NCBI GenBank assembly: GCA_025363315.1
Contig: JANYED010000305.1
Location: forward strand, 1-35,559
DNA: 35,559 nt
Reading direction: 5' to 3'
Origin: Polaromonas sp.
Lineage (GTDB): Bacteria > Pseudomonadota > Gammaproteobacteria > Burkholderiales > Burkholderiaceae_C
In this document: piece by piece, positions 8,592 to 34,128 of the stretch
Position numbering within the stretch: the first letter of the stretch is position 1
Layout: every line of letters starts with the position of its first letter
Made by a program: the position numbers and the translations under genes
Notes under the pieces: model-generated
Seen by the model: only the letters and a program-made list of their open reading frames with translations
The model's database searches: none
Told to the model about the DNA's origin: nothing

Positions 8592-9896
8592 TCAGGCCAG
8601 CGTATCTGCCCAGATGTTGCTGGCCCAGCTCAGGGCATAGCTGGCTTCCAGTTCGTTGGGCGCCGCGCTGACGCCGCCAGAGCCTGCAACGGCTTTAAAG
8701 GTTTTATCAAGCGCGACATACTCGTGCACGCTGGCCACATGAATCACGTTTTTGGTATTGACAAAGCTGTAGCAGGTGTTGGTTAGCATGGGCGCCGGGT
8801 TCACGTCCCAGCCCGACAGCTGCGCCACGATGGCGCTGGCCGCCACCTTGCCGTGGCCGTTGGCCATGTGCGCGCTCTTGGGCATGGCGGGTGCAATTTG
8901 AATGGAATCTCCCAGCACATGCACGTCTTTGGCGGCAGTTGATTCAAACGTCAGGTAATTGACGCCGCACCAGCGGTTGTTGGCCTGGTTGTTGAGCCCG
9001 GTTTTCACCGCAATCGCACCGGCCCGCATGGGCGGCAGCACATTCAGCACGGCGGCGGTCACGTCGTCCTGCACGTCGAATTTAACGGTGTTCGTTTTCG
9101 CATCAACCGCTATGGCCTTGTGCTGGCCGCGGTATTCCACCATGCCGGGGTACTGCTCGGCCCAGACCTTTTTAAACAGCGCGGGTTTGGACGTGACGTC
9201 CGGGTTCGCGTCCAGAATCAGCACTTTTGATTTCGGCTTGTTGGCCTTGAAGTAAGCCGCCACCACCGACGCCCGCTCATACGGGCCGGGTGGGCATCGG
9301 TACGGCGCTTCAGGAATCGTGATGGCAAACACGCCGCCGTCGGGCATGGCCTCAAGCTGCCTGCGCAGCGCCTGCGTCTCGGCCCCGGCCTTCCAAGCTT
9401 GCAGAATCTGGCCGCTCGCGTTGGCGGCTTGCAGGCCTTCAATGCCGCCAAGCATCAACTCGACCCCGGGCGACACCACCAGCTTGTCATACGCCATCAC
9501 GCTGCCACCGCGCAGGGTTACTGTCTTTTTGGCGGTGTCGATGCTGTCTGCAAAGTCTTTGACCACCGTGATGCCGTGGTTCTTGGAAAGACTGGCGTAA
9601 GACGTGGTCAAAAAATCCATCTGTTTGATGCCACTCACAACCAGGTTTGACATCGGGCACGACGCAAACGCGTCTTGTGGTTCGATCAACACCACGTCGA
9701 TTTTGTAGTCAGACAACAGGCGCACATACTTGGCCGCCGTTGCACCGCCGAAGCCGCCACCAATCACCACCACGGTAGCTCTGGACGGCACACCCGTCAT
9801 GCTGGCGCAGGCCGACAAGCCCGCCGCGCCGAGCAAGCCCAGGGCGGCAGATGACTGCAAAAACGAACGGCGACTGGATGGTGAGGTGTTGCGCAT
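8592..9896 (-). CDS. fccB: Flavocytochrome c sulfide dehydrogenase, flavoprotein subunit
   Basis: 434-residue FAD protein that oxidises sulfide in the periplasm and passes electrons to its cytochrome c partner. A Tat signal (SRRSFLQ, residues 8-14) is followed by a hydrophobic stretch and a lipobox-like LSAC. The FAD dinucleotide fold VVVIGGGFGG starts near residue 42. Cys80 in FASCPMSNLVV matches the covalent FAD-attachment Cys. A Cys in PYRCPPGPYER and one in NTCYSF near the C-terminus probably form the redox disulfide. The C-terminal FCSD domain is present (LEASYALSWASNIWADT). The ATG at 9894-9896 has AGGAAAG upstream; it follows fccA by 13 nt. Confidence 0.93.
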   Translation of the reverse strand: MRNTSPSSRRSFLQSSAALGLLGAAGLSACASMTGVPSRATVVVIGGGFGGATAAKYVRLLSDYKIDVVLIEPQDAFASCPMSNLVVSGIKQMDFLTTSYASLSKNHGITVVKDFADSIDTAKKTVTLRGGSVMAYDKLVVSPGVELMLGGIEGLQAANASGQILQAWKAGAETQALRRQLEAMPDGGVFAITIPEAPYRCPPGPYERASVVAAYFKANKPKSKVLILDANPDVTSKPALFKKVWAEQYPGMVEYRGQHKAIAVDAKTNTVKFDVQDDVTAAVLNVLPPMRAGAIAVKTGLNNQANNRWCGVNYLTFESTAAKDVHVLGDSIQIAPAMPKSAHMANGHGKVAASAIVAQLSGWDVNPAPMLTNTCYSFVNTKNVIHVASVHEYVALDKTFKAVAGSGGVSAAPNELEASYALSWASNIWADTLA

Positions 9897-9909
9897 GATG
9901 TAGCTTTCC

Positions 9910-10248
9910 TTATTTCTTTTGCGCGGCAAAGTAAGTTGCCAGCACCTCAATTTGCGCGTCGCTGTAGCCCTTGCTGAGCTGGTGCATCACCGTGGCAGGA
10001 CGGGTGCCGTTTTTAAAGGCGGCCATTTGTGCCATGGTGTAGGCCTTGTCCAGCCCCGCCAGCGAGCCAACGCTGGCACCAGAAACCGCCACGCCGTTGG
10101 TGCCATGGCAACTGGCGCAGGTGGCGGCCAGGCTTTTGACGTACAGCGCATCTTTGCCAGCATCGGTTTGTGCATAGGCTGAGCTTGCCAGGCAAAACAT
10201 CAAGGTGGCCAACAAGGGTAAGCGAGTGGCCAGAGCTTTGATTTTCAT
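9910..10248 (-). CDS. fccA: Small periplasmic c-type cytochrome, FccA-like partner of the sulfide dehydrogenase
   Basis: 112-residue class I cytochrome c with a Sec signal peptide (about residues 1-26, ending SSAYA) and one haem site Cys44-Ala-Ser-Cys47-His48. A Met in the second half (TVMHQLSKGYS) is the likely axial ligand. It lies 13 nt upstream of fccB on the same strand, so it is very probably the haem subunit that accepts electrons from FccB. It has one haem, unlike the dihaem subunit of the purple sulfur bacterial enzyme. The ATG at 10246-10248 is preferred because the signal peptide starts there. Confidence 0.9.
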   Translation of the reverse strand: MKIKALATRLPLLATLMFCLASSAYAQTDAGKDALYVKSLAATCASCHGTNGVAVSGASVGSLAGLDKAYTMAQMAAFKNGTRPATVMHQLSKGYSDAQIEVLATYFAAQKK

Positions 10249-22821: not shown

Positions 22822-22848
22822 GTGCACCCAAGAACGACGGAGACACCC

Positions 22849-23523
22849 ATGCGAATTTTGATTGCCGAAGACGACCAAATTCTGGCCGATGGCTTGCTGC
22901 GAACGCTACGTGCATCGGGCGCGGCGGCTGACCATGTGGCCAGCGGGTCTGAGGCCGACGCCGCGCTGCTGACCAACACCGAGTTTGACCTGCTGATTCT
23001 GGACCTGGGGCTGCCCAAAATGCATGGGCTGGAAGTGCTCAAACGCCTGCGTGCACGTGGCTCGGTGCTGCCAGTGCTGATACTGACCGCCGCTGATAGC
23101 GTAGAAGAGCGCGTCAAAGGCCTGGACTATGGCGCTGACGACTACATGGCCAAACCGTTTTCATTGCAAGAGCTCGAAGCACGGGTGCGCGCGCTGGTGC
23201 GGCGCGGCGCGGGCGCGGCCAGCAGCACCATCAAACACGGCCCGCTGGTGTACGACCAAGGTGGGCGCGTGGCCACGATAGACGGCGCGATGGTCGACTT
23301 GTCGGCGCGCGAACTGGGACTGCTTGAGGTCCTGCTGCAACGCACAGGCCGCCTCGTCAGCAAAGACCAGCTGGTTGAACGGCTGTGTGAATGGGGCGAA
23401 GAAGTCAGCAATAACGCCATTGAGGTGTACATCCACCGGCTGAGGAAGAAGATTGAGAAAGGGCCCATCAGAATTGCGACAGTTCGTGGCCTTGGTTATT
23501 GCCTAGAAAAAATTCCAAGCTAA
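22849..23523 (+). CDS. OmpR-family response regulator (TctD/QseB-like)
   Basis: 224 residues. The receiver domain has acidic residues Glu7-Asp8-Asp9, phospho-acceptor Asp52 in LLILDLGLP and Lys in DDYMAKPF. The C-terminal winged helix contains VSNNAIEVYIHRLRKKIE and RGLGYCLE. The ATG at 22849 gives the classical MRILIAEDDQ start; nine extra codons upstream are unsupported. The gene is followed 9 nt later by its kinase. Sequence style is that of TctD-type regulators of carboxylate uptake. No tripartite tricarboxylate transporter genes are adjacent, so the target is open. Confidence 0.92.
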   Translation: MRILIAEDDQILADGLLRTLRASGAAADHVASGSEADAALLTNTEFDLLILDLGLPKMHGLEVLKRLRARGSVLPVLILTAADSVEERVKGLDYGADDYMAKPFSLQELEARVRALVRRGAGAASSTIKHGPLVYDQGGRVATIDGAMVDLSARELGLLEVLLQRTGRLVSKDQLVERLCEWGEEVSNNAIEVYIHRLRKKIEKGPIRIATVRGLGYCLEKIPS

Positions 23524-23532
23524 GCCCGCGAC

Positions 23533-24987
23533 ATGGCAATTCGCATCTTCCAGCGCGAGCGCCGAAGTTTATTTGGCGAAATTCTTGACTGGATGCTCAC
23601 GCCGCTGTTGTTGCTGTGGCCCATCAGCCTGGCGTTGACCTGGCTGGTGGCGCAAAACATTGCGGGCAAGCCGTTTGACCGCGCTCTCGAATTTAACGTT
23701 CAGGCGTTAGCCAAGTTTGTGGTAGTTAAAAACAATCAAGTGCAGTTCACCATGACGGGCCCGGCACGAGAAATTTTGCGGGCTGACGACACCGATCTGG
23801 TCTACTACCAAGTGCGCGGCATCGGTGGCGAATTCTTGGCTGGCGAGCGTGACCTGCCTGCCCCGGTTGAAGAAGACAAAGCGGCTGACGGCGAGGTGGT
23901 GCTGCGCCTGGACAGAATCAATGGCGAAGAAGTCAAAGTTGCCTACACCTGGATCAAGGTGGATGCCAAAGGTGAGGGCAAGTCTGGCAATCAGGTGTTG
24001 GTTCAGGTGGCCGAAACCCTTGAAAAGCGCAAAACTCTAGCCACTGAAATCGTGAAAGGCACGATGGTGCCGCAATTCGTCACGCTGCCATTGGCAGTGC
24101 TGCTGGTGTGGCTGGCGCTGGTGCGCGGCATCAAGCCGCTGGCGCAGCTTGAAAAACGCATTCGCGCCCGCAAACCCGACGACATGAGCCCGCTGGACGA
24201 CAACGCCGTGCCCGAGGAAGTTGCGCCGCTGGTGTCGTCCATCAATGACTTGCTCAGCCGCCTGAAAGTCTCGCTCACCACGCAAAAACGCTTTCTGGCA
24301 GACGCTGCGCACCAACTTAAAACGCCGCTGGCCGGGCTACGCATGCAGGCCGATTTGGCACAACGCGAAACCAATGCCGACGAGCTGAAAAAGTCGCTTA
24401 AAAACATTGGCAGGTCAAGCGTGCGTGCAACCCACACGGTTAACCAGTTGCTGGCATTGGCGCGGGCTGAAGCCACTGGCCGCAGTCTGCCCAAGCAGCT
24501 GGTAGACCTGGTCACCATCGCCAGCGAAGTCGTGGCCGATTCTGTGCCGCGCGCCCTTGAAAAGCAGATCGATCTGGGTTACGAGGGGCCTGAGTCGGGC
24601 GGGCAAGGCACACGACTTGAAGGCAACCCGACACTGCTCAAAGAACTGATGCGCAACCTGCTGGACAACGCCATTGCCTACACGCCCGAAAAAGGCCAGG
24701 TCACGTTGCGGCTGGTAGCCGACAGCTTCAGTGGCGCGTTGGTGTTGCTGGTGGAGGACTCAGGCCCCGGCATTCCGGCAGCCGAGCGCGAACTGGTGTT
24801 CCAGCCTTTTTATCGGGCGCTCGGTACCAATGTTGATGGCTCGGGTTTGGGCTTAGCGATTGTGGTCGAAATCGCCGATCAGCATGATGGGGTCGTCAGC
24901 ATTGAAGACGCGCTACTACCAGGCCATCCGCAGTCACCCGGAACGCGGATTGCAGTACTGTTCAGCGGCGTACAGCGGCAACGCTGA
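23533..24987 (+). CDS. Sensor histidine kinase (TctE-like)
   Basis: 484 residues. Membrane segments lie at about 20-42 and 177-198, flanking a periplasmic domain of about 135 residues resembling the 2CSK_N sensor of TctE. HAMP-like linker follows, then the H-box with His260 in LADAAHQLKTPLAGLR. The N-box is LMRNLLDNAIAYTPE; G-boxes are EDSGPGIP and DGSGLGLAIVVEIA. The H-box HQLKTPL and the sensor class fit TctE/QseC-type kinases. It pairs with the regulator directly upstream. The signal is not known. Confidence 0.92.
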   Translation: MAIRIFQRERRSLFGEILDWMLTPLLLLWPISLALTWLVAQNIAGKPFDRALEFNVQALAKFVVVKNNQVQFTMTGPAREILRADDTDLVYYQVRGIGGEFLAGERDLPAPVEEDKAADGEVVLRLDRINGEEVKVAYTWIKVDAKGEGKSGNQVLVQVAETLEKRKTLATEIVKGTMVPQFVTLPLAVLLVWLALVRGIKPLAQLEKRIRARKPDDMSPLDDNAVPEEVAPLVSSINDLLSRLKVSLTTQKRFLADAAHQLKTPLAGLRMQADLAQRETNADELKKSLKNIGRSSVRATHTVNQLLALARAEATGRSLPKQLVDLVTIASEVVADSVPRALEKQIDLGYEGPESGGQGTRLEGNPTLLKELMRNLLDNAIAYTPEKGQVTLRLVADSFSGALVLLVEDSGPGIPAAERELVFQPFYRALGTNVDGSGLGLAIVVEIADQHDGVVSIEDALLPGHPQSPGTRIAVLFSGVQRQR

Positions 24988-25269
24988 AAATACAACCGTT
25001 ACTTGTCAGCCGGGGCTTGCGCCGCCGAGAAAACTGGGATGTCAAACGAGCCATCTTCCTAGTTTGGCACCTGCTCAGCGCACCCGCGGACCGCCAGCCC
25101 TCAATTGGCGCAACAGCGTCATACAAACGTCACAACGCTGACACAAACCAAATTTACATTGTGAGTAGCTGTTGCAGTGTTGTCATGTCCGCCACCACTG
25201 CATTGCCGATAAAACCTATTGTCATCCTTCGGCACGCAGAGCGCATGCCTACCAACCGGAGTTCACCGA

Positions 25270-25731
25270 ATGAGAAATTACGTATTTAAAACAACGCTGG
25301 CCGCGATCTTGGTCGCAGGTTTGCTCAGTGCCTGCGGTGGCGGCGACGACAGCCCACCAGACACGCGAGCCACGTTCGGCGCGGCTTACGGTAGCGGCTT
25401 GGCAAACATGAGCACGGCAGCTGGGCTTCAGCGCGCTGCCCTGCTTGACGTAGTGGACGCTGGCTTTTTGGACGGTGGTTATAACCGGGCCAAGATGGCG
25501 AGTAACTTTTCTGCAGATGCCGCGTCATTGAGCGGCGCTACTGCAGTGTCTTTGTTTCCGATGGTTTCACTCAGCAATCCCGTGATTACCTGCCCAACCA
25601 GCGGCAACATTTGCAGCTTCACGGGCACCGTCACAAACACCGATGCGGACGCAACCGAGGCAAGCTTCACAACCCCAGTGATTTTTAGTGATGGCGCTTT
25701 CCGCCTGTACGGCGATCAGGCTAGCAGCTGA
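25270..25731 (+). CDS. Small lipoprotein of unknown function
   Basis: 153 residues. The signal peptide ends in a lipobox LLSAC with acylated Cys22, followed by GGGDDSPPD, a flexible linker seen in many betaproteobacterial lipoproteins. The mature part is Ala/Ser/Thr-rich and contains two Cys (ITCPTSGNICSFTG) that could form a disulfide. No domain recognised. The ATG at 25270 was chosen because it starts the signal peptide. It lies 65 nt upstream of the DUF3604 gene and may belong to the same export cluster. The 282-nt gap before it holds nothing recognisable. Confidence 0.78.
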   Translation: MRNYVFKTTLAAILVAGLLSACGGGDDSPPDTRATFGAAYGSGLANMSTAAGLQRAALLDVVDAGFLDGGYNRAKMASNFSADAASLSGATAVSLFPMVSLSNPVITCPTSGNICSFTGTVTNTDADATEASFTTPVIFSDGAFRLYGDQASS

Positions 25732-25750
25732 TCCAAATGCAGCGTTGATT

Positions 25751-25778
25751 TTGACCTTCATTCCGATTTTTTAATATT
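25751..25778 (+). promoter_or_regulatory. Candidate sigma70 promoter of the DUF3604 cluster
   Basis: TTGACC at 25751-25756 and an AT-rich -10 candidate (AATATT, 25773-25778) with a 16-nt spacer, in an AT-rich patch just before the gene. GAGG at 25786-25789 is the likely ribosome binding site, 7 nt before the ATG at 25797. Judged by eye only. Confidence 0.35.
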
Positions 25779-25796
25779 TTCTACCGAGGCTTCGCC

Positions 25797-27911
25797 ATGA
25801 GAAACACATTCAAACCCCGCGACATCACCCTGGCGGTGTGCGCCGTTGCCAGCCTGGCAGGGCTGGCCCTGACCCAACACGCTGGTGCCGCCCCAAAAGC
25901 CAATACGAAGGCTGCAGGCACCTATGTTACGGGCGATTTCCACAACCACACCACCTGCTCAGACGGCACCTTGTCGATGAAAAAACTCATCGACAAAAGC
26001 GCAAAAACCTACAACCTCGACTGGTTCGTCCAAGCCGACCACGGCGGCAGCAGCACCCGCAACTGCACGGTGGCAGAAGACCCGTTCGAGCCCGTCGCGC
26101 CAGCGCTTGGTTTAACCAACAGCACGACAGGACCTTACCCGCCTGCGACGTACCCGTCCGGTGGCGAGCCCGCGGCATTGCTCAAAGGCCCAAACCAAAG
26201 CTGGGAGTCAACGCTTCCCAATGGCCGAGCTGACATTAAGGGTGACGGCACTGCAGTACCCAAAGCCATGTGGCGCTGGCAAGAAATCAAGGAATTTCAA
26301 TACGCTGTAACTGAAGCTGAAAGCCGTAGCCGCCTGAAACCCATCTGGATTGGCGTGGAGCAAAACGCGCCCGGACACGAGCATGTGTCAACGAACGTTT
26401 TGAAAGGTCAGCTGCCTTGGCCATCCACGGCTGCCGGCGGCAATGCCAACTTGCAAGCGCAATACGAATATTGCTTTGACCGCTCTGATGCAGACACCAG
26501 CCGCGGCGCTGAAAACCAGTGGGACTGCTCAGTGGTCGGCAACGCCAGCAACAGCCTTATCAACGCGACTGCGGCGAAAATCACCGGCAACAACAGCGCG
26601 GCCACACCTGACTTGGGCCATACCAAATCGTTGATGGGCGTGGCGTGGATGGCTGAAAAAGCACCAACCACCAGCTACTTTATACCGGCCCACCTCGAGC
26701 GCGCTGGTGCTTACAACCCGGTGGCGAGCAGCGGTTTTAACGTGGAGCACTTGCGCAACTTCAACAACGTCGCACCGAACGTCGCTTTTGGATTTGAATC
26801 GATGCCCGGACACCAGGCTGAAGCAGGTCGCGGCAGTTACAACACCACCGCGGTCGGCGGCGGTACTTACGGTGGCACAGGCGTTTACGCTGCGGCCATT
26901 GGCGGTGTGTGGGACGCACTGTTGGGTGAAGGCCGCGGTTGGTGGTTCTTTGGCAGCTCTGACTACCATAACCGCGGGCAATTCGGACCAGACCAGCGTG
27001 AAACAACTGCTGACTTTTATCCTGGCGAGTACACCAAAGACTACGTCATGTCGCGCCGCGGCACGAACAACTTGTCGCCTGAAGCCATCATTGACGGCCT
27101 GCGTTCCGGCAACAGTTTTGTCGCCAACGGCGATTTGATTGACCGCATGGCATTTGTGGCCTGCGCCTACAACCCTGGCCTGCCACGCCCAGCGTTCAAA
27201 GCCCTGATGGAAAAAGCGGCCATCAACGCGGTGACTAAAAATGCTGAAGTGCGCATCGACGGTTGCGCGACCATGGGTGAAAAGCTGGTGGTGCGCCCAG
27301 GCGCGGACATTTTGGTGACGATGGCAGTGCGCGATCCCCAGGGCACCAACAACTCGCCTTATAGTTTTGCCAACCCCTCTCTTAAGCAGATCAATATTAC
27401 CCAGCCGCTGAACGCGCCGGTGCTCGACCATTTGGACTTGATTGGTGGCGATGTAACCGGCCTTGTTGCGCCGACCGACAGCGCCAAGTACGCTGGCGCA
27501 CTTGGGAGCGCTGCAGCAACTAATAAATCGACAGCCGTCAAAAAGGTATTTAACAGTACCAGCTGGACGATTCTGCCCGGTGGTGTTCGTTTGATGAGCT
27601 ACCGCATCCCGGCAGTTAGCGCGTCACAGTTTGTACGATTGCGCGGCACCAATTTGCCGCCGTCTACGCCGTTTGAGTCAGATGTAAATGGCAATCCAAT
27701 TTTGGATTACGACCTGAGCCCATCAGACCAAACCGTGGCCGGCAAGGTGGCGTGTACCGACGCAGCCTGCCCAGCGCACATGCGCACCGTGGCCGGTGTC
27801 AAGTACTCCAGTTTTGACGTGGCATCTTGGGCAGACCTGTGGTTTTACAGCAATCCAATCTTTATTGAAGTGACAAACTCGGTGAAGGTTGCTGGTATCA
27901 ACGTCAAGTAA
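25797..27911 (+). CDS. Exported DUF3604 (PHP-like) metal-dependent protein
   Basis: 704 residues with a Sec-type signal peptide (about 1-31, ending QHAGA). The mature protein opens with a PHP-like metal motif: GDFHNHTTCSDG with His49, His51 and Asp56, and QADHGG with Asp81-His82. A later SSDYHNRG supplies Asp389 and His391, so a periplasmic or secreted metallo-hydrolase/phosphoesterase fold is likely. Two Cys-x-Asp/Ala regions near the C-terminus (CTDAACPAH) may be disulfides. The substrate is unknown; DUF3604 has no established reaction that I know of. It begins the cluster that continues with the spermidine-synthase-like, PpiC and HupE genes. Confidence 0.85.
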   Translation: MRNTFKPRDITLAVCAVASLAGLALTQHAGAAPKANTKAAGTYVTGDFHNHTTCSDGTLSMKKLIDKSAKTYNLDWFVQADHGGSSTRNCTVAEDPFEPVAPALGLTNSTTGPYPPATYPSGGEPAALLKGPNQSWESTLPNGRADIKGDGTAVPKAMWRWQEIKEFQYAVTEAESRSRLKPIWIGVEQNAPGHEHVSTNVLKGQLPWPSTAAGGNANLQAQYEYCFDRSDADTSRGAENQWDCSVVGNASNSLINATAAKITGNNSAATPDLGHTKSLMGVAWMAEKAPTTSYFIPAHLERAGAYNPVASSGFNVEHLRNFNNVAPNVAFGFESMPGHQAEAGRGSYNTTAVGGGTYGGTGVYAAAIGGVWDALLGEGRGWWFFGSSDYHNRGQFGPDQRETTADFYPGEYTKDYVMSRRGTNNLSPEAIIDGLRSGNSFVANGDLIDRMAFVACAYNPGLPRPAFKALMEKAAINAVTKNAEVRIDGCATMGEKLVVRPGADILVTMAVRDPQGTNNSPYSFANPSLKQINITQPLNAPVLDHLDLIGGDVTGLVAPTDSAKYAGALGSAAATNKSTAVKKVFNSTSWTILPGGVRLMSYRIPAVSASQFVRLRGTNLPPSTPFESDVNGNPILDYDLSPSDQTVAGKVACTDAACPAHMRTVAGVKYSSFDVASWADLWFYSNPIFIEVTNSVKVAGINVK

Positions 27912-27917
27912 TCGATT

Positions 27918-27958
27918 TGGATCCGCGCTAGCAGCCGCTTGGCTGTTAGCTCGATCCA
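27918..27958 (+). other. Long imperfect hairpin between the DUF3604 gene and the next gene
   Basis: TGGATC (27918-27923) pairs with GATCCA (27953-27958). Inside it GCTAGCAGCC pairs with GGCTGTTAGC (one G-U) around a GCTT tetraloop. There is no U-tract, so it is more likely an mRNA-processing or stability element than a terminator, limiting expression of the downstream genes relative to the exported protein. Confidence 0.6.
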
Positions 27959-27962
27959 GTGA

Positions 27963-30536
27963 TTGTTTGCAGGACTGATTGCACCGTTGTTTTTTGCTAC
28001 CTTTTTAGCCTTCCTGTCTGGTGCTGCCGGACTGGTGTGGCAAATCGCCTGGACCACCCAGCTCGGACTGATGCTTGGTCACGAGCTGGTCTCCGTTTTG
28101 GCGGTGATGGTCGGTTTTTTCGGCGGCTTGGCTGCAGGCGCTTTTTTGCTGGCCAGAAGAGTCGAGCAGTCCAAACGCCCGGGACAGTGGTACGCCGCAC
28201 TGGAAGCGCTGACGGGCTTGTGGGGCCTGCTGATCGTCTTCTCAAACACGTATATCTCAAGCATGGTGACAAATTGGCTGGGCGCTGAACCACCGGCCTG
28301 GCAGCACTGGCTCGTCGCCTTTGCGGTACCGCTGGTTTGCTTGTTGCCCGCCACCATGGCCATGGGAGCCACCTTGCCTGCGTTGGAGCGACAGTGCCGC
28401 GCTGCAAGTGCGCATGCGCTGCGATTGCTGTACGCGTGGAACACGGCGGGTGCGATGGTGGGCTTGCTGGCTGCTACCTTCTGGTTGTTGCCAGCCGTTG
28501 GCTTGAAGGCATCTGCAAACCTCTTTGCCATGTTGAACCTGGTCTGTGCATTGCTAGCATTTTTGAAGTGGCGCACCCAGTTAATTTGCGTGCCAGAGAC
28601 CACTTCGACTCATTCGCATCAAACGCGCGAAATACCAGATCAGCCAAACTCAAAACGCTTGCAAGTAGCCCTGTTTGCGACGGGTTTGCTCGGCATTGGC
28701 TACGAAGTAATGGTGGTGCGGACGCTCAGCCAAGTGACTGAAAACACCGTTTATTCCTATGCGCTGTTGTTGGCCGTGTTTTTGCTCGGCACGGCGCTTG
28801 GTGCGCGCCTCCTGCATGGCAACGCACCCGACCATTCAGACAATCGGCGAATTGACAATTTGCTGATCTGGCTAGCCGTCAGTGTGCTGGTATCCGGCAG
28901 CAGCCTGTGGTGGGCTGATCGCTGGGTGACTCTGCCAGCTGTCTGGCTGGGCGGTGGCCAGGCCACGGCGCTTGCAGGCGAGGCGCTGGCAGCAATCGCT
29001 GCGCTGCTCTGGCCCGCGATGGTGATGGGTGCCTTGTTTGCAGAACTGAGCATTCGGGCACAAGCCAGCGGCAGCACATGGGGCAGGGCGCTGGGCATAA
29101 ATACGGTAGGCGCTGCGCTAGCCCCGGTGTTGATGGGCGCTGTGCTGGTGCCGCAGTGGGGTGCACATATTGTCCTGGTTCTGCTGGTGCTGGGCTACTT
29201 GGCGCTGTGCTCACGGCTCACTTGGCGGCGGCCTACGCATTTGGGGTTGGTGGCAGCTGCGCTAGCGCTGCTGGTGTTGGCACCGCCGCTGCGCTTTGTA
29301 GATGTGCCCGAGCAAGGCCGAATCCTCAACTATCGCGACGGCATCATGGCTGCCGTCAGTGTGGTGGAAGACTCGGGCGGCACGGCGCGCCTTCACATCA
29401 ACAACCGGGTGCAAGAAGGCAGCAGCGCCAGCGGCTTGGTTGAAACGCGGCTCGCGCAACTGCCCCTGCTGCTGCACCCCGCGCCACGCACCGCCTTGTT
29501 TTTAGGACTAGGCACCGGCTATACCGCGCAAGCCGCTGCGATTGACCCAGCGCTGCGCGTGCAGGCAGTCGAGTTGCTGCCCGAGGTGGTCGAGGCGGCG
29601 CAGTTGTTTGCCCTCAAGCCCGGCGCACCGCGCGCCGCCTGGCCGGTTGCCATTGCGACTGCTGACGCGCGACGATATGTGCAATCCAAAGGCCTGGCTT
29701 ATGACGTGATCGTGGCGGACTTGTTTCACCCCGCCCGCAGCGGCGCGGCCTACCTGTACACGCGTGAGCATTTTCAGGCAGTTAAATCGCGTCTGGCAGA
29801 CGGAGGTGTGTTTTGCCAATGGCTGGCACTGCATCAAATGGACCTGGCCAGTTTGCGTAGTATCAGTGCGGCGTTTATGCAGGTCTACCCCGACGCGGTC
29901 CTTGTGCTGGCCAGCAATAGCCTGGACACGCCGGTGGTGGGTTTGATGGCGCGCAACGGCGGCGTGCCGTGGTCCATCGACCGAATCGCCGCCAGATTTC
30001 AAAGTCAGCCCACCGAGCTGGCCAGCGCCTTGAAGTTGGCTCGAATTGACGATGCCTATGCGGTGCTGGGCAGCGTGCTGGCCGACCCACAGTCGTTGCG
30101 AAACTTTATTGGCACCCAGCCCGCCAATCTTGACGACCACCCAATCGTTGCACATATGACCGCCAGCGTTGACTACGCACCGCAAGACACGCCCCGCCAA
30201 CGCTTGGCTGCGTTGCTGCTGTTGTTGCAACCGCGATTGGAGGGCGTGACGCAAGCAAGCACTGACCAACGCCTGCTCGCTTACTGGCAAGCCCGACACC
30301 AATACCTGGCTGTCGGCCTGCAAACCCAGGCGCGTAACGACCCAGAGCGCATGCTGGCGCAACTCAGCCCCGCATTGCTGGCGGTTGCCAACATGAGCGC
30401 CGACTTTCACCCTGCCACCGAGTCGTTAATCAGCCTGGCCAACGCCGCGTTGGCGCGCAACCCACAATCTGCGCTGGCCAAAGACGCGTTGGCAGCGCTT
30501 CGTTTTGAAACTCCAACCAACACCACGACAAAATGA
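27963..30536 (+). CDS. Polytopic membrane protein fused to a spermidine-synthase-like domain
   Basis: 857 residues. The N-terminal 450 or so contain about 12-14 hydrophobic segments starting with FLSGAAGLVWQIAWTTQLG, the usual opening of MFS/spermidine-synthase fusions. The C-terminal part (about 460-690) is a class I methyltransferase-like aminopropyltransferase fold: FLGLGTGYT near 513, VELLPEVVEAA, ADARRYVQS and VIVADLFHPAR. About 150 residues follow with helical, repeat-like character. Whether it makes polyamines is unknown; the nucleotide-loop motif differs from the GGGDG of true SpeE. The start is uncertain: TTG at 27963 directly follows a stop and no Shine-Dalgarno site is seen. It overlaps the next gene by 4 nt. 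Confidence 0.85.
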   Translation: MFAGLIAPLFFATFLAFLSGAAGLVWQIAWTTQLGLMLGHELVSVLAVMVGFFGGLAAGAFLLARRVEQSKRPGQWYAALEALTGLWGLLIVFSNTYISSMVTNWLGAEPPAWQHWLVAFAVPLVCLLPATMAMGATLPALERQCRAASAHALRLLYAWNTAGAMVGLLAATFWLLPAVGLKASANLFAMLNLVCALLAFLKWRTQLICVPETTSTHSHQTREIPDQPNSKRLQVALFATGLLGIGYEVMVVRTLSQVTENTVYSYALLLAVFLLGTALGARLLHGNAPDHSDNRRIDNLLIWLAVSVLVSGSSLWWADRWVTLPAVWLGGGQATALAGEALAAIAALLWPAMVMGALFAELSIRAQASGSTWGRALGINTVGAALAPVLMGAVLVPQWGAHIVLVLLVLGYLALCSRLTWRRPTHLGLVAAALALLVLAPPLRFVDVPEQGRILNYRDGIMAAVSVVEDSGGTARLHINNRVQEGSSASGLVETRLAQLPLLLHPAPRTALFLGLGTGYTAQAAAIDPALRVQAVELLPEVVEAAQLFALKPGAPRAAWPVAIATADARRYVQSKGLAYDVIVADLFHPARSGAAYLYTREHFQAVKSRLADGGVFCQWLALHQMDLASLRSISAAFMQVYPDAVLVLASNSLDTPVVGLMARNGGVPWSIDRIAARFQSQPTELASALKLARIDDAYAVLGSVLADPQSLRNFIGTQPANLDDHPIVAHMTASVDYAPQDTPRQRLAALLLLLQPRLEGVTQASTDQRLLAYWQARHQYLAVGLQTQARNDPERMLAQLSPALLAVANMSADFHPATESLISLANAALARNPQSALAKDALAALRFETPTNTTTK

Positions 30537-31417
30537 CCGACGTAACACTCACCCCCGACCACAGCCAAACCCCGAGCGGCACTAGCGGCATTGGCAGCCG
30601 TTTCAATTCCTGGCGCCAGCACCCCTTGCTGCGCGAGCCGCTCGTTCACTTCGTGTTCTTGGGTTTGTTGATCTTTGCTGCAGACCAGGTCGTGCTGGCC
30701 ATACGCGGCAATCCGCAGGAAATCATTGTGCCGGTTGCTTCACAAAAAGAAGCAAAGGACGCGTTCGTGGCGGGCATGAAGCGCGAGCCCACACCCGCAG
30801 ACATGAAAATTTTGATGAACCGCTGGGTTGACAACGAGGTGTTGTACCGCGAAGGCATTTCATTGGGTTTGGACAAGGGCGACACATCGATTCGTGAACG
30901 GGTTATTTTTAAAGCACTCACCATTACCCAGTCCGGCCTGTCTTTGCCGAAAATTAACGAGGCTGGCTTGCGCGCCTGGTTTGTCACCAAGCAGGGCCGC
31001 TACGACCAGCCCGCGCGCTTTGACTTTCAGGAGGCGATGGTGCTGGGCGACAGGTCCGCCGAGCGCATGGCCGCATTCGTCAAAGCGCTCAACAGCCAAA
31101 GCCTGTCGGATGTTGAAAGCAGCCTGAGCTTGTTCAAAGACCGTCCGCGACCCAACCTGGTTCAAAGCTATGGCGAGCCCTTTGCCGCAGCGCTTGAAAA
31201 GCAAACCCCCGGCGTGTGGGCAGCGGTGGACAGCCGCGAGGGCGTGCGCGTCATCAACCTGACCGCCATCGCAGCAGGTCAAACCAGCAACTTTGATGCG
31301 GTCAAAAAACGCGTGTTTCAAGACTGGAAAGATGACGCCACCGGCCAAGTGACCCAGCAAGCGCTGCAAGGCATGGCACGCAAATACCACATTCGCGGTG
31401 ATGGGTTTGCGCTATGA
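30533..31417 (+). CDS. Membrane-anchored PpiC/SurA-like peptidyl-prolyl isomerase family protein
   Basis: 294 residues: a hydrophilic N-terminus, one membrane segment (about 38-56, VHFVFLGLLIFAADQVVLAI), then a periplasmic helical SurA_N-like part (NRWVDNEVLYREGISLGLDKGD near 100-121). The C-terminal region corresponds to a rotamase domain but is poorly conserved, so catalysis is doubtful and a chaperone role is as likely. The ATGA overlaps at both ends (30533-30536 and 31414-31417) couple its translation to the spermidine-synthase-like and HupE-like genes. It may fold or insert the exported members of the cluster. Confidence 0.82.
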   Translation: MTDVTLTPDHSQTPSGTSGIGSRFNSWRQHPLLREPLVHFVFLGLLIFAADQVVLAIRGNPQEIIVPVASQKEAKDAFVAGMKREPTPADMKILMNRWVDNEVLYREGISLGLDKGDTSIRERVIFKALTITQSGLSLPKINEAGLRAWFVTKQGRYDQPARFDFQEAMVLGDRSAERMAAFVKALNSQSLSDVESSLSLFKDRPRPNLVQSYGEPFAAALEKQTPGVWAAVDSREGVRVINLTAIAAGQTSNFDAVKKRVFQDWKDDATGQVTQQALQGMARKYHIRGDGFAL

Positions 31418-32382
31418 GTGGTTTCATCAAATGGCTCACTCATAAATTAATAGCTGTTTGCGCCCTATTTATATGGGCTACAGCCGTAAATGCCCATGAA
31501 ATGACGATCACCGACCTAAACCTGCGCGAAACCCAGCCCGGTCAATTCGTCTGGTCCTGGGGCTTGCCCGGTAAAAGCAAACCGGTGGCAGAAGACTTAA
31601 AACCGCTGTGGCCCGAAGGCTGCGCCGGGGACGAACGCACCTTGCGCTGCGGCCCCAAAGGCCTGGCTGGCACGCTGGCGGTAGACGGCATAGGTAAAAA
31701 TTATTCAGCAGTGATCTTGCGGGTGCGCTGGCGCGGCGGCGATCAAACCACTTTCACCATCACCGAGTCGCAGCCCAAAGTGCAGCTGTTCGGCAGCGCC
31801 AAAGACGATCGCCCCGCCAGCGAGGTCATCGTTGCTTACGGCATGCTGGGCTTTCAGCACATCCTGGAAGGCATTGACCACTTGCTGTTTGTGCTCAGCC
31901 TTCTGTTTTTGGTCGGTTTCAGGCGGCAGCTGCTGACCACCATCACCGCATTTACCGTGGCCCACAGCCTGACGCTGGCGGCCAGCGCACTCGGCGCCTT
32001 GTCACTGCGGCCAGCGCCGGTTGAGGCGACGATTGCGCTGTCAATTGTGCTGGTCTGCGCCGAGGCGCTGAGCCGCAAAGACTCACTCACCCGGCGCTAC
32101 CCGGCAGCGGTGGCGTTTGTGTTTGGCCTGGTGCACGGCCTGGGTTTTGCAGGCGCACTCAAAGATATCGGTCTGCCAGAACGCTTCACCAACTGGGCGC
32201 TGGTCAGCTTCAACGTCGGCGTTGAAGCGGGGCAGTTGCTGGTGATTGCAGCGGCTTGGGGTTTGTGGTGGGGCTTCAGGCGCCTGCGCGTTGCACCCCG
32301 TGCCAGGCAATGGGTGTTGTATGCCATGGGCGGCATGGCATCGTTTTGGACGCTGTCGCGGTTGGTGGTGATTGCCGGGTGA
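31414..32382 (+). CDS. HupE/UreJ-like membrane protein with periplasmic N-terminal domain
   Basis: 322 residues. The signal peptide is about 1-27, cleaved before His28-Glu-Met. A periplasmic domain of about 110 residues follows, then six or seven membrane helices of the HupE/UreJ_2 type. Conserved polar membrane residues: His149 and Asp155-His156 in QHILEGIDHLLF, His184 in VAHSLTLA, His241 in VHGLGFAG. These suggest a metal (nickel, cobalt or copper) permease; the substrate is not known for this subfamily. The hydrophobic core of the signal peptide (LIAVCALFIWATA) is encoded by an interspersed-repeat copy. The start overlaps the preceding stop by 4 nt. Confidence 0.87.
   Translation: MSGFIKWLTHKLIAVCALFIWATAVNAHEMTITDLNLRETQPGQFVWSWGLPGKSKPVAEDLKPLWPEGCAGDERTLRCGPKGLAGTLAVDGIGKNYSAVILRVRWRGGDQTTFTITESQPKVQLFGSAKDDRPASEVIVAYGMLGFQHILEGIDHLLFVLSLLFLVGFRRQLLTTITAFTVAHSLTLAASALGALSLRPAPVEATIALSIVLVCAEALSRKDSLTRRYPAAVAFVFGLVHGLGFAGALKDIGLPERFTNWALVSFNVGVEAGQLLVIAAAWGLWWGFRRLRVAPRARQWVLYAMGGMASFWTLSRLVVIAG
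31443..31491 (+). repeat. Interspersed-repeat copy encoding the HupE signal-peptide core
   Basis: TTAATAGC, then 24 nt with TGTTTGCGCCCTATTTATATGGGC-type sequence, then TACAGCCG. This is the same framework, spacing and orientation as the intergenic copy at 12073. In this frame it reads without stop as hydrophobic residues. Here the element is part of a coding sequence, not flanking one. Confidence 0.72.
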
Positions 32383-32415
32383 GATGTTTCAGCCAAGTTT
32401 TAAACTGCAAAACGT

Positions 32416-33066
32416 ATGCCAGACCAAGTAAATAGAGCGCAAGCTGCTACGGTTTTTGAATTGTTTCCGACGCCCGTGCTGCACGTGCCCGCACTGCTGA
32501 CGACCCCTGATGCGCAAGCTTTGGCGCAGCGCCTGGTCCTGCGCGCAGCCGTGCCCAACAGCAGCTCAGACAAGCTGGCGCACACGCAGCCACTGGCCCC
32601 GGGCGATGACGCAGGCGTGGACGCCCTGGTCAGCCTGATTCGCCCGCACCTGCAGCGCATGGGCCAACTGCTGTTTGGCCAGACGCTGCCGTGGCTGGTC
32701 AAGGACATCTGGGCCAACGTGCTGCAAACGGGCGGCCAGCAGGCGCTACACAACCATGCCAACTGCTTTGTGTCAGGCATCGTTTACCTGACCGAACCCG
32801 ATGCATCCGCCCGCACCGTTTTTGCGCGGCCATTGGGTGGGGCTGACTTTGTTTTTCGCAACGACCACGCTGGCAGCCAGACCAACGCTTTTAACGCCGC
32901 CAAATGGATAGTGCCTGCGCCGCAGGTCGGTGACTTGCTGCTGTTCCCGAGCTATTTGCTGCACGAAGTGCCGCGCAATCAGGGCGGTGAGCGCATCAGC
33001 GTGGCCTTCAACGCGATTGCCCAGCGGCTGGATTCGTGGGGCTACGCGGTGTCTTTTCAACCCTGA
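32416..33066 (+). CDS. 2-oxoglutarate/Fe(II) oxygenase-like protein (TIGR02466-type)
   Basis: 216 residues. The C-terminal double-stranded beta-helix shows HNHANCFVSGIVYL (His112, His114), FPSYLLHEVPRN (His183) and the 2-oxoglutarate Arg193 in ERISVAFN. The N-terminal FELFPTPVLHV is typical of the putative 2OG-Fe(II) oxygenase family TIGR02466. No signal peptide, so cytoplasmic. The substrate is unknown. It lies 33 nt after the HupE-like gene in the same direction and is probably the fifth gene of the transcript; the predicted iron dependence adds to the metal theme of the cluster. Confidence 0.83.
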   Translation: MPDQVNRAQAATVFELFPTPVLHVPALLTTPDAQALAQRLVLRAAVPNSSSDKLAHTQPLAPGDDAGVDALVSLIRPHLQRMGQLLFGQTLPWLVKDIWANVLQTGGQQALHNHANCFVSGIVYLTEPDASARTVFARPLGGADFVFRNDHAGSQTNAFNAAKWIVPAPQVGDLLLFPSYLLHEVPRNQGGERISVAFNAIAQRLDSWGYAVSFQP

Positions 33067-33085
33067 TTTTTGTGAAGCGACCACC

Positions 33086-33514
33086 ATGTTTAATCGCATA
33101 TTTGCCGTGTCGATGTTGTCTCTAGCGTGCAGTGTCGCCCCTGCTCTGGCACACGAGTACTACACCCCCGGCTTTACCTTCGTCCACCCATGGGCCGAGG
33201 CCACCGCTGCCGGCCAGCTTGACGCGCCGGTGTACTTTGAACTTGACAACGTTACCCGCAGTGACACGGTGCTGGGCGCCGCTACGCCAGCGGCAGATAG
33301 GGTCGAACTGCGTTCGGGGTCCGACCAGAAAGCCGCCGCAGCGGTTCAACTTTCCGTGCCGGCAGGAGACTCAGTGTCCTTTTCTGCCGACAAAGCCCAT
33401 TTAATGCTGCGCGGTCTGAAGGCGCCCCTGCAGTGGGGCCGCAGCTATTCAATGATGGTCGATTTTGAAAAAGCGGGCAAGGTGCTGGTGATGATTTCTG
33501 TGGGCGCGCATTAA
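33086..33514 (+). CDS. PCuAC-like periplasmic protein with a degenerate copper site
   Basis: 142 residues with a Sec signal peptide (about 1-22, ending PALA before HEYY). The mature protein has the PCuAC cupredoxin-like fold: FVHPWAEAT at the start, then AHLMLRGLKAPLQWGRSY (His105, Met107) at the end. Classical PCuAC proteins carry a further His and Met cluster in the middle (usually E-x-H and M-rich). Here that position reads VELRSGSDQKAAAA and lacks both, so copper binding may be weak or changed. It starts 19 nt after the oxygenase gene. Two 11-nt tandem units overlap its stop codon. Confidence 0.8.
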   Translation: MFNRIFAVSMLSLACSVAPALAHEYYTPGFTFVHPWAEATAAGQLDAPVYFELDNVTRSDTVLGAATPAADRVELRSGSDQKAAAAVQLSVPAGDSVSFSADKAHLMLRGLKAPLQWGRSYSMMVDFEKAGKVLVMISVGAH

Positions 33515-33711: not shown

Positions 33712-34128
33712 ATGCATGACATTATTGACACCGCTGTTGCCGCCGGATCGTTCAAAACGCTGGCTGCCGCTGTTACGGCTGCAGGACTGGTTCCCACGCT
33801 CAAAGGCGCTGGCCCATTCACCGTTTTTGCACCAACCGATGAGGCATTCGCCAAGCTGCCAGCCGGCACCGTTGAAGCCTTGTTGGCTGACATCCCCAAG
33901 CTGGCCGCAATCCTCACGTACCACGTTGTGGCCGGCAAAGTCATGGCGGCTGACGTAATGACGATGGACGGCAAATCAGCCGCCACCGTGAACGGCGCCA
34001 CAGTAGCCATCAGCACCAAAGACGGCGTTAAGCTGAACGGCGCATCCAAAGTCGTCACCACTGACATCGCCTGCACCAACGGCGTGATCCACGTTATCGA
34101 CACCGTGCTGATGCCCCCATCAGCCTGA
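33712..34128 (+). CDS. Fasciclin (FAS1) domain protein
   Basis: 138 residues forming a single FAS1 domain. The H1 motif [17 protein letters not shown] (about 34-50) and the H2-like [14 protein letters not shown] (about 69-82) are clear, ending with [13 protein letters not shown]. Bacterial FAS1 proteins are usually adhesive or surface-associated, but no signal peptide is visible here, so location is uncertain. AAGGAA lies 6 nt before the ATG. It is a monocistronic unit: a gap of almost 200 nt precedes it and a terminator follows. Confidence 0.92.

Follow-up and report, generated by a model that had tools for sequence, protein, structure and literature searches.

The seven neighboring genes at positions 25270-33514 of the window (the whole stretch of DNA analyzed, 35,559 nucleotides) belong to a gene set whose members are found together repeatedly in many bacteria of soil and water. 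We tentatively interpret the cluster, with a little less than even confidence, as a co-inherited phosphate-starvation (PhoB) module in which a secreted PHP phosphoesterase is combined with a PpiC foldase, a metal-catching HupE protein and a modifying pair formed by a 2OG oxygenase and a fused MFS/spermidine-synthase-like protein (SpdMFS). Under this interpretation, phosphate shortage would set off the PhoB response and turn the module on, and a two-domain, metal-dependent PHP-type phosphoesterase would be exported and, once outside the cytoplasm, would free phosphate from organic phosphorus. Folding of this enzyme would be aided by the membrane-anchored PpiC protein, and a transition metal would be caught by the N-terminal-His domain of the anglerase-type HupE protein and passed on to the enzyme. 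The 2OG oxygenase and SpdMFS, a SAM-binding membrane protein, would act as a second sub-unit that modifies the PHP enzyme, its anchor or its product.

ORF calling on the window placed all seven genes on the + strand; a simple caller was used, so some of the ORF starts will be wrong. The genes encode a small lipoprotein with a lipobox and no matching Pfam family (25270..25731), a predicted exported two-domain PHP-type phosphoesterase of 704 aa (25797..27911; PHP fold match, export judged by eye), SpdMFS (27963..30536), a membrane-anchored PpiC-type (Rotamase_2) protein (30533..31417), a HupE/UreJ-2 protein with the anglerase layout (31414..32382), a 2OG-Fe(II) oxygenase family protein (32416..33066) and a PCuAC-fold protein without the copper motif (33086..33514). 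The original prediction had described seven same-strand genes with two 4-nt ATGA overlaps; positions and strand were borne out for every ORF, and the overlaps lie at 30533-30536 (genes 3 and 4) and 31414-31417 (genes 4 and 5). Its labels spermidine-synthase-like, PpiC, HupE, 2OG oxygenase and PCuAC also agree with family matches over curated cut-offs: Spermine_synth (30.3 bits) and the fused MFS/spermidine synthase family NF037959 (62.1 bits, cut-off 40) for SpdMFS, Rotamase_2 (30.8 bits) for the PpiC protein, HupE_UreJ_2 (PF13795; 153.3 bits, cut-off 24.5) for the HupE membrane domain, 2OG-FeII_Oxy_5 (84.5 bits) and TIGR02466 (67.6 bits) for the oxygenase, and PF04314 (65 bits, cut-off 29.4) for the PCuAC protein. 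The match of SpdMFS to the spermidine synthase SpeE (TIGR00417), at 37.2 bits, stayed under the cut-off of 249.55.

An alignment of seven relatives of the 704-aa protein was used to scan species genomes and yielded 416 relatives, of which the best 80 were kept and joined with four earlier loci to give the 84 loci studied. These correspond to 83 distinct loci, since L027 and L011, each 26366 bases long, are apparently the same contig. Both lie outside the set of 44 full loci, in which the PHP gene is flanked on either side by 7 kb or more, and L027 was dropped from the residue-conservation alignments and from the upstream and later analyses. The PpiC, HupE and 2OG genes were each found beside the PHP relative in 44/44 full loci and the SpdMFS gene in 43/44, while the PCuAC gene was present in 28 and the lipoprotein gene in 12. 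The co-occurrence that the original prediction had put forward for testing is strongly supported by the partners present at 43-44 of the 44 full loci, and the module partners adjoin PHP relatives more often than by chance. Gene order is also constrained among the loci studied: the PpiC and HupE genes lie on the same strand within 53 nt of each other in 72/72 cases and overlap in 59, the PHP gene lies ahead of PpiC, with the strand shared, in 70/71, and the 2OG and SpdMFS genes share a strand in 61/62. In the window type all genes form one run; elsewhere the 2OG-SpdMFS pair is divergent, upstream or downstream.

The distribution is patchy, because the gene for the 704-aa protein was found in only 3/61 nearest genomes (its own and two of the same genus, G006 and G014), and because an even draw of 369 class genomes yielded six matches, its own included, the other five being remote (22-91 bits). 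G014 carries the cluster on other contigs, but its counterparts of the two flanks of the window cluster (identity to the window 78 and 84%) are separated by only 1.3 kb, with no cluster between them; the cluster at the window site behaves as an inserted block. All seven genes occur in the same order on a plasmid of a Comamonadaceae leaf isolate (L014), beside nikR and a TonB-dependent receptor gene located just upstream (L014:8046-10699).

The 704-aa protein had been labeled DUF3604, and this assignment was not upheld. No Pfam family matched at E<=0.1, DUF3604 (PF12228; gathering score 20.4 bits) included, while true DUF3604 members scored 833 and 763 bits with the same library. Profile comparison of DUF3604 with the window protein gave a probability of 12% and no convincing link, although the motifs of the two share their order when judged by eye, and no DUF3604 match was found in the window's own genome at E<=0.001. 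The best named family was CehA/McbA (NF038032; 35.3 bits, E 8e-9), below its curated cut-off of 80 bits. The protein has a clear match to the PHP fold, which the original prediction had missed, and the residues HxH, D, H, E, H, H, DxH, which we take to be the PHP superfamily metal-ligand set, are invariant in an alignment of 78 relatives. We predict from this fold that the protein is a phosphatase. The Bacteroides two-domain PHP-like phosphoesterase BVU_3505 (3e38) differs from it in length (342 residues), has 14% identity and gives no sequence match to the window protein.

A search of the upstream regions for spaced four-base pairs, made with no prior motif, recovered ACAG-5-TGAC in 21/54 upstreams of loci without the lipoprotein gene and in none of three shuffles; no recurring spaced pair was found in the 24 upstreams of lipoprotein loci. 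The pair can be read as a PhoB-type direct repeat with an 11-bp period. Scoring was done against CTGTCAT-4-CTGTCAT, which we assume to be the PhoB box consensus, and boxes with at least 11/14 matches were present in 22/78 module upstreams and in 13/494 control upstreams from the same loci. Other periods (7 to 17) reached this score in only 1-6 of the 78, and 200 shuffled half-site consensuses gave 1.9 upstreams on average and 16 at most, against the 22 obtained with the real one. The enrichment persisted with one region per similarity group (15/53) and was weaker in lipoprotein loci (5/24) than in the others (17/54); 30/78 module upstreams score 9 or less of 14, and four-half-site arrays were not clearly enriched (4/53, p 0.06). 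The window itself has on the + strand a possible box with 10/14 matches at 25169..25186, 83 bp before the lipoprotein start, and a possible array of three half-sites with an 11-bp period and 14/21 matches at 25116..25144; both are weak alone because 59 and 22, respectively, of the 494 control upstreams score as high. Given the enrichment in the family and the weak boxes in the window, the gene family is probably PhoB-linked, a link missed in the original prediction, and for the window copy PhoB control is only suggestive.

The window's own genome contains 204 sites with three or fewer mismatches compared with 79 for a reversed control, and the sole single-mismatch site among those listed lies 37 bp before ppk (polyphosphate kinase), on a contig that also carries pstS; this site overlaps the end of another called ORF. 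PhoX and PhoD are exported, metal-dependent phosphoesterases of the Pho regulon under Pho boxes, in which they resemble what we propose for the window PHP protein, but their fold is different and we know of no dedicated PpiC and anglerase partners for them. A phoD gene is found beside 5/84 of the loci studied. Riboswitch control was considered and rejected: the window has no Rfam match at gathering thresholds, and the sole element in a search of six loci, a cspA element in L045, lies outside the module.

The HupE protein has an N-terminal His28 after the signal peptide, a predicted exported beta-sandwich and a helical membrane domain. His28 is conserved in 73/73 relatives and is preceded by Ala in 70, the cleavage site being judged by eye. 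The nearest solved structures are the same as for Ang-1 (the Vibrio zinc protein ZrgA), and Ang-1 (PDB 9GCE), as presented in the main text of PMC12537917, likewise has a His right after the signal peptide and a PF13795 membrane domain; the exported beta-sandwich of Ang-1 may have its counterpart in the window protein. The 2025 description of anglerases left their role unsettled. According to that text, metal capture and import are proposed for this HupE class, and RbAng-1a binds Cu with a Kd of 74 nM and Ni with a Kd of 220 nM. The Ang-1 neighbors given there are unknowns, DUF4198, indigoidine-A-like and PfkB proteins, whereas PHP, PpiC, 2OG and SpdMFS genes are constant in the window type; DUF3604, PpiC, an isomerase and a Pho box are not named in the main text. 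The original prediction had made PpiC a folding helper and HupE a metal permease for the exported metalloprotein. This idea fits the anatomy of the proteins and has gained an experimental anchor in the Cu-binding Ang-1 domain of a related HupE/UreJ-2 protein, but the main text of the 2025 paper favors metal import (PMC12537917). The gene neighborhood suggests to us that the metal would be delivered to the PHP enzyme. A second HupE_UreJ-type (PF04955) membrane protein is encoded near the module at L052:5039-6226 and in five other loci of those studied.

The PpiC-HupE pair is also found without a window-type PHP gene. DUF3604 is present in 33/340 class genomes, and among 20 DUF3604 regions fetched from these 33 genomes the pair adjoins DUF3604 in 10, as the neighborhood check proposed in the original prediction had anticipated; PpiC occurs alone in one, and nine have neither gene, several of the nine being on short contigs. 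Strong PpiC-profile matches (E<=1.4e-24) occur in 20 genomes, 18 of them DUF3604-positive and the other two being the window's genome and G324. The profile was built with nine of these 20 genomes plus the window, and among the ten strong-match genomes outside the profile 9/10 are DUF3604-positive compared with 33/340 overall. Weak matches in 306/340 genomes are expected because PpiC is a general family. The DUF3604 triads resemble the window in having the same pair by an exported PHP-like protein and differ from it in that no 2OG or SpdMFS relative was found in the 20 regions and that boxes of at least 11/14 occurred in 0/18 upstreams, without enrichment. As the same pair stands beside either DUF3604 or the window PHP type, we take it to be the constant core, with a varying exported protein. 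A Deinococcus proteolyticus plasmid (L017:7593-10066), where a PHP relative adjoins a HupE gene with PhoX and Nramp genes nearby, fits this pattern; the PHP relative is apparently 5'-truncated and adjoins an IS630 transposase. Five PHP relatives that are more distant lie on other plasmids, and neither PpiC nor HupE was found in the stretch fetched around them. It is conceivable, though doubtful, that PpiC and an anglerase-type HupE protein form a general device of two genes by which exported metalloenzymes of the PHP superfamily are made, with a membrane-tethered foldase and a metal angler sharing one client (DUF3604 or a PhoB-controlled phosphoesterase). If so, anglerases would load metal into secreted enzymes instead of acting as general importers, and the secreted phosphatase would need the copper or nickel that is captured.

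In SpdMFS the SAM-site residues GxGxG, E537, D568 and D586 are kept in 99-100% of 68 relatives. The lipobox Cys22 and Cys115 of the lipoprotein are invariant in 26 aligned sequences. A small protein that carries a VPLPA/PEP-CTERM sorting signal (for example L063:3522-4166, and 22 further loci) is found in 23 of the 84 loci and the lipoprotein in 28, never together; either may be an anchor or a substrate. The label PCuAC remnant proved apt, since H(M)x10Mx21HxM, presumably the PCuAC copper motif, occurs in 0/44 relatives, and this loss makes a copper-chaperone role unsupported and unlikely. The place of the mature N-terminal His is occupied by a lipobox-like Cys in 24/44 aligned sequences and by His in 19, so that the PCuAC relatives seem to switch between lipoprotein and His-start forms.

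The main rival to the phosphate-starvation reading is copper or nickel acquisition, which we regard as possible but unlikely: the anglerase-type HupE protein would import the metal, a TonB receptor (where present) would bring in the complex and the PHP enzyme would free the metal from an organic ligand. It agrees with the capture and import proposed in the main text of PMC12537917 and with the Cu and Ni binding of RbAng-1a, as well as with nikR and the TonB receptor beside the plasmid copy, the TonB receptor family near 11/84 loci and the second HupE_UreJ-type protein in six. The PhoB-type boxes of the family argue against it, nikR is annotated in just one locus, the partner that is always present is a hydrolase instead of an ABC or TonB system, and the PCuAC motif is lost.

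Modification of a surface protein, in which SpdMFS and the 2OG oxygenase would act on one of two small proteins, the lipoprotein or the PEP-CTERM-like protein, which the PHP enzyme would trim or anchor, would explain why these two small proteins exclude each other as if replacing one another, why the two modifying genes share a strand and why the SAM site is retained. We consider it improbable, as the small proteins are not universal (12/44 full loci for the lipoprotein and 14/44 for the PEP-CTERM-like protein) and have no known modification site. Least probable in our judgment is a horizontally spread degradative esterase or amidase of the CehA/McbA kind, acting on a xenobiotic or natural ester; CehA/McbA is the best named family, and the patchy occurrence, the plasmid copy in one host and the inserted block at the window site would suit such a gene, but the score is far below the family cut-off and the PhoB-type boxes favor phosphorus substrates.

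A search of the open-access literature found no description of the module, its DUF3604 counterpart or the Pho link, while every component is of a known kind, the anglerase being recent. That the PpiC-HupE pair accompanies an exported protein in two distinct gene contexts, a PHP-type protein in one and DUF3604 in the other, points to a candidate client for anglerases, and the PhoB-type boxes in one of the two contexts suggest a physiological cue. If the phosphate-starvation reading is true, soil and freshwater Burkholderiales would have a new phosphorus-scavenging route with metal supply tied to phosphate acquisition. The function of this PHP family, of DUF3604 and of the PpiC-HupE pair can now be tested in cultured Variovorax or Roseateles relatives.

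The region upstream of the cluster (window:21031-24987) encodes recA, a MarR-type gene and a 2CSK_N-type two-component system. The latter (22822-24987) was rejected as a dedicated regulator and is considered part of the flank, because its kinase is genus-wide (at least 73% identical and listed in 34/37 other same-genus genomes), compared with the PHP gene in 3/61 nearest genomes, and because in G014 the kinase end and an Lrp/AsnC gene lie 1.3 kb apart with the module absent between them. A single-domain fasciclin gene just 3' of the cluster (33712-34128) was rejected as a module member, being present in 0/44 full loci; other fasciclin copies exist in the same genome. Farther upstream, the - strand of the window (8595-9950) encodes a flavocytochrome c sulfide dehydrogenase flavoprotein.
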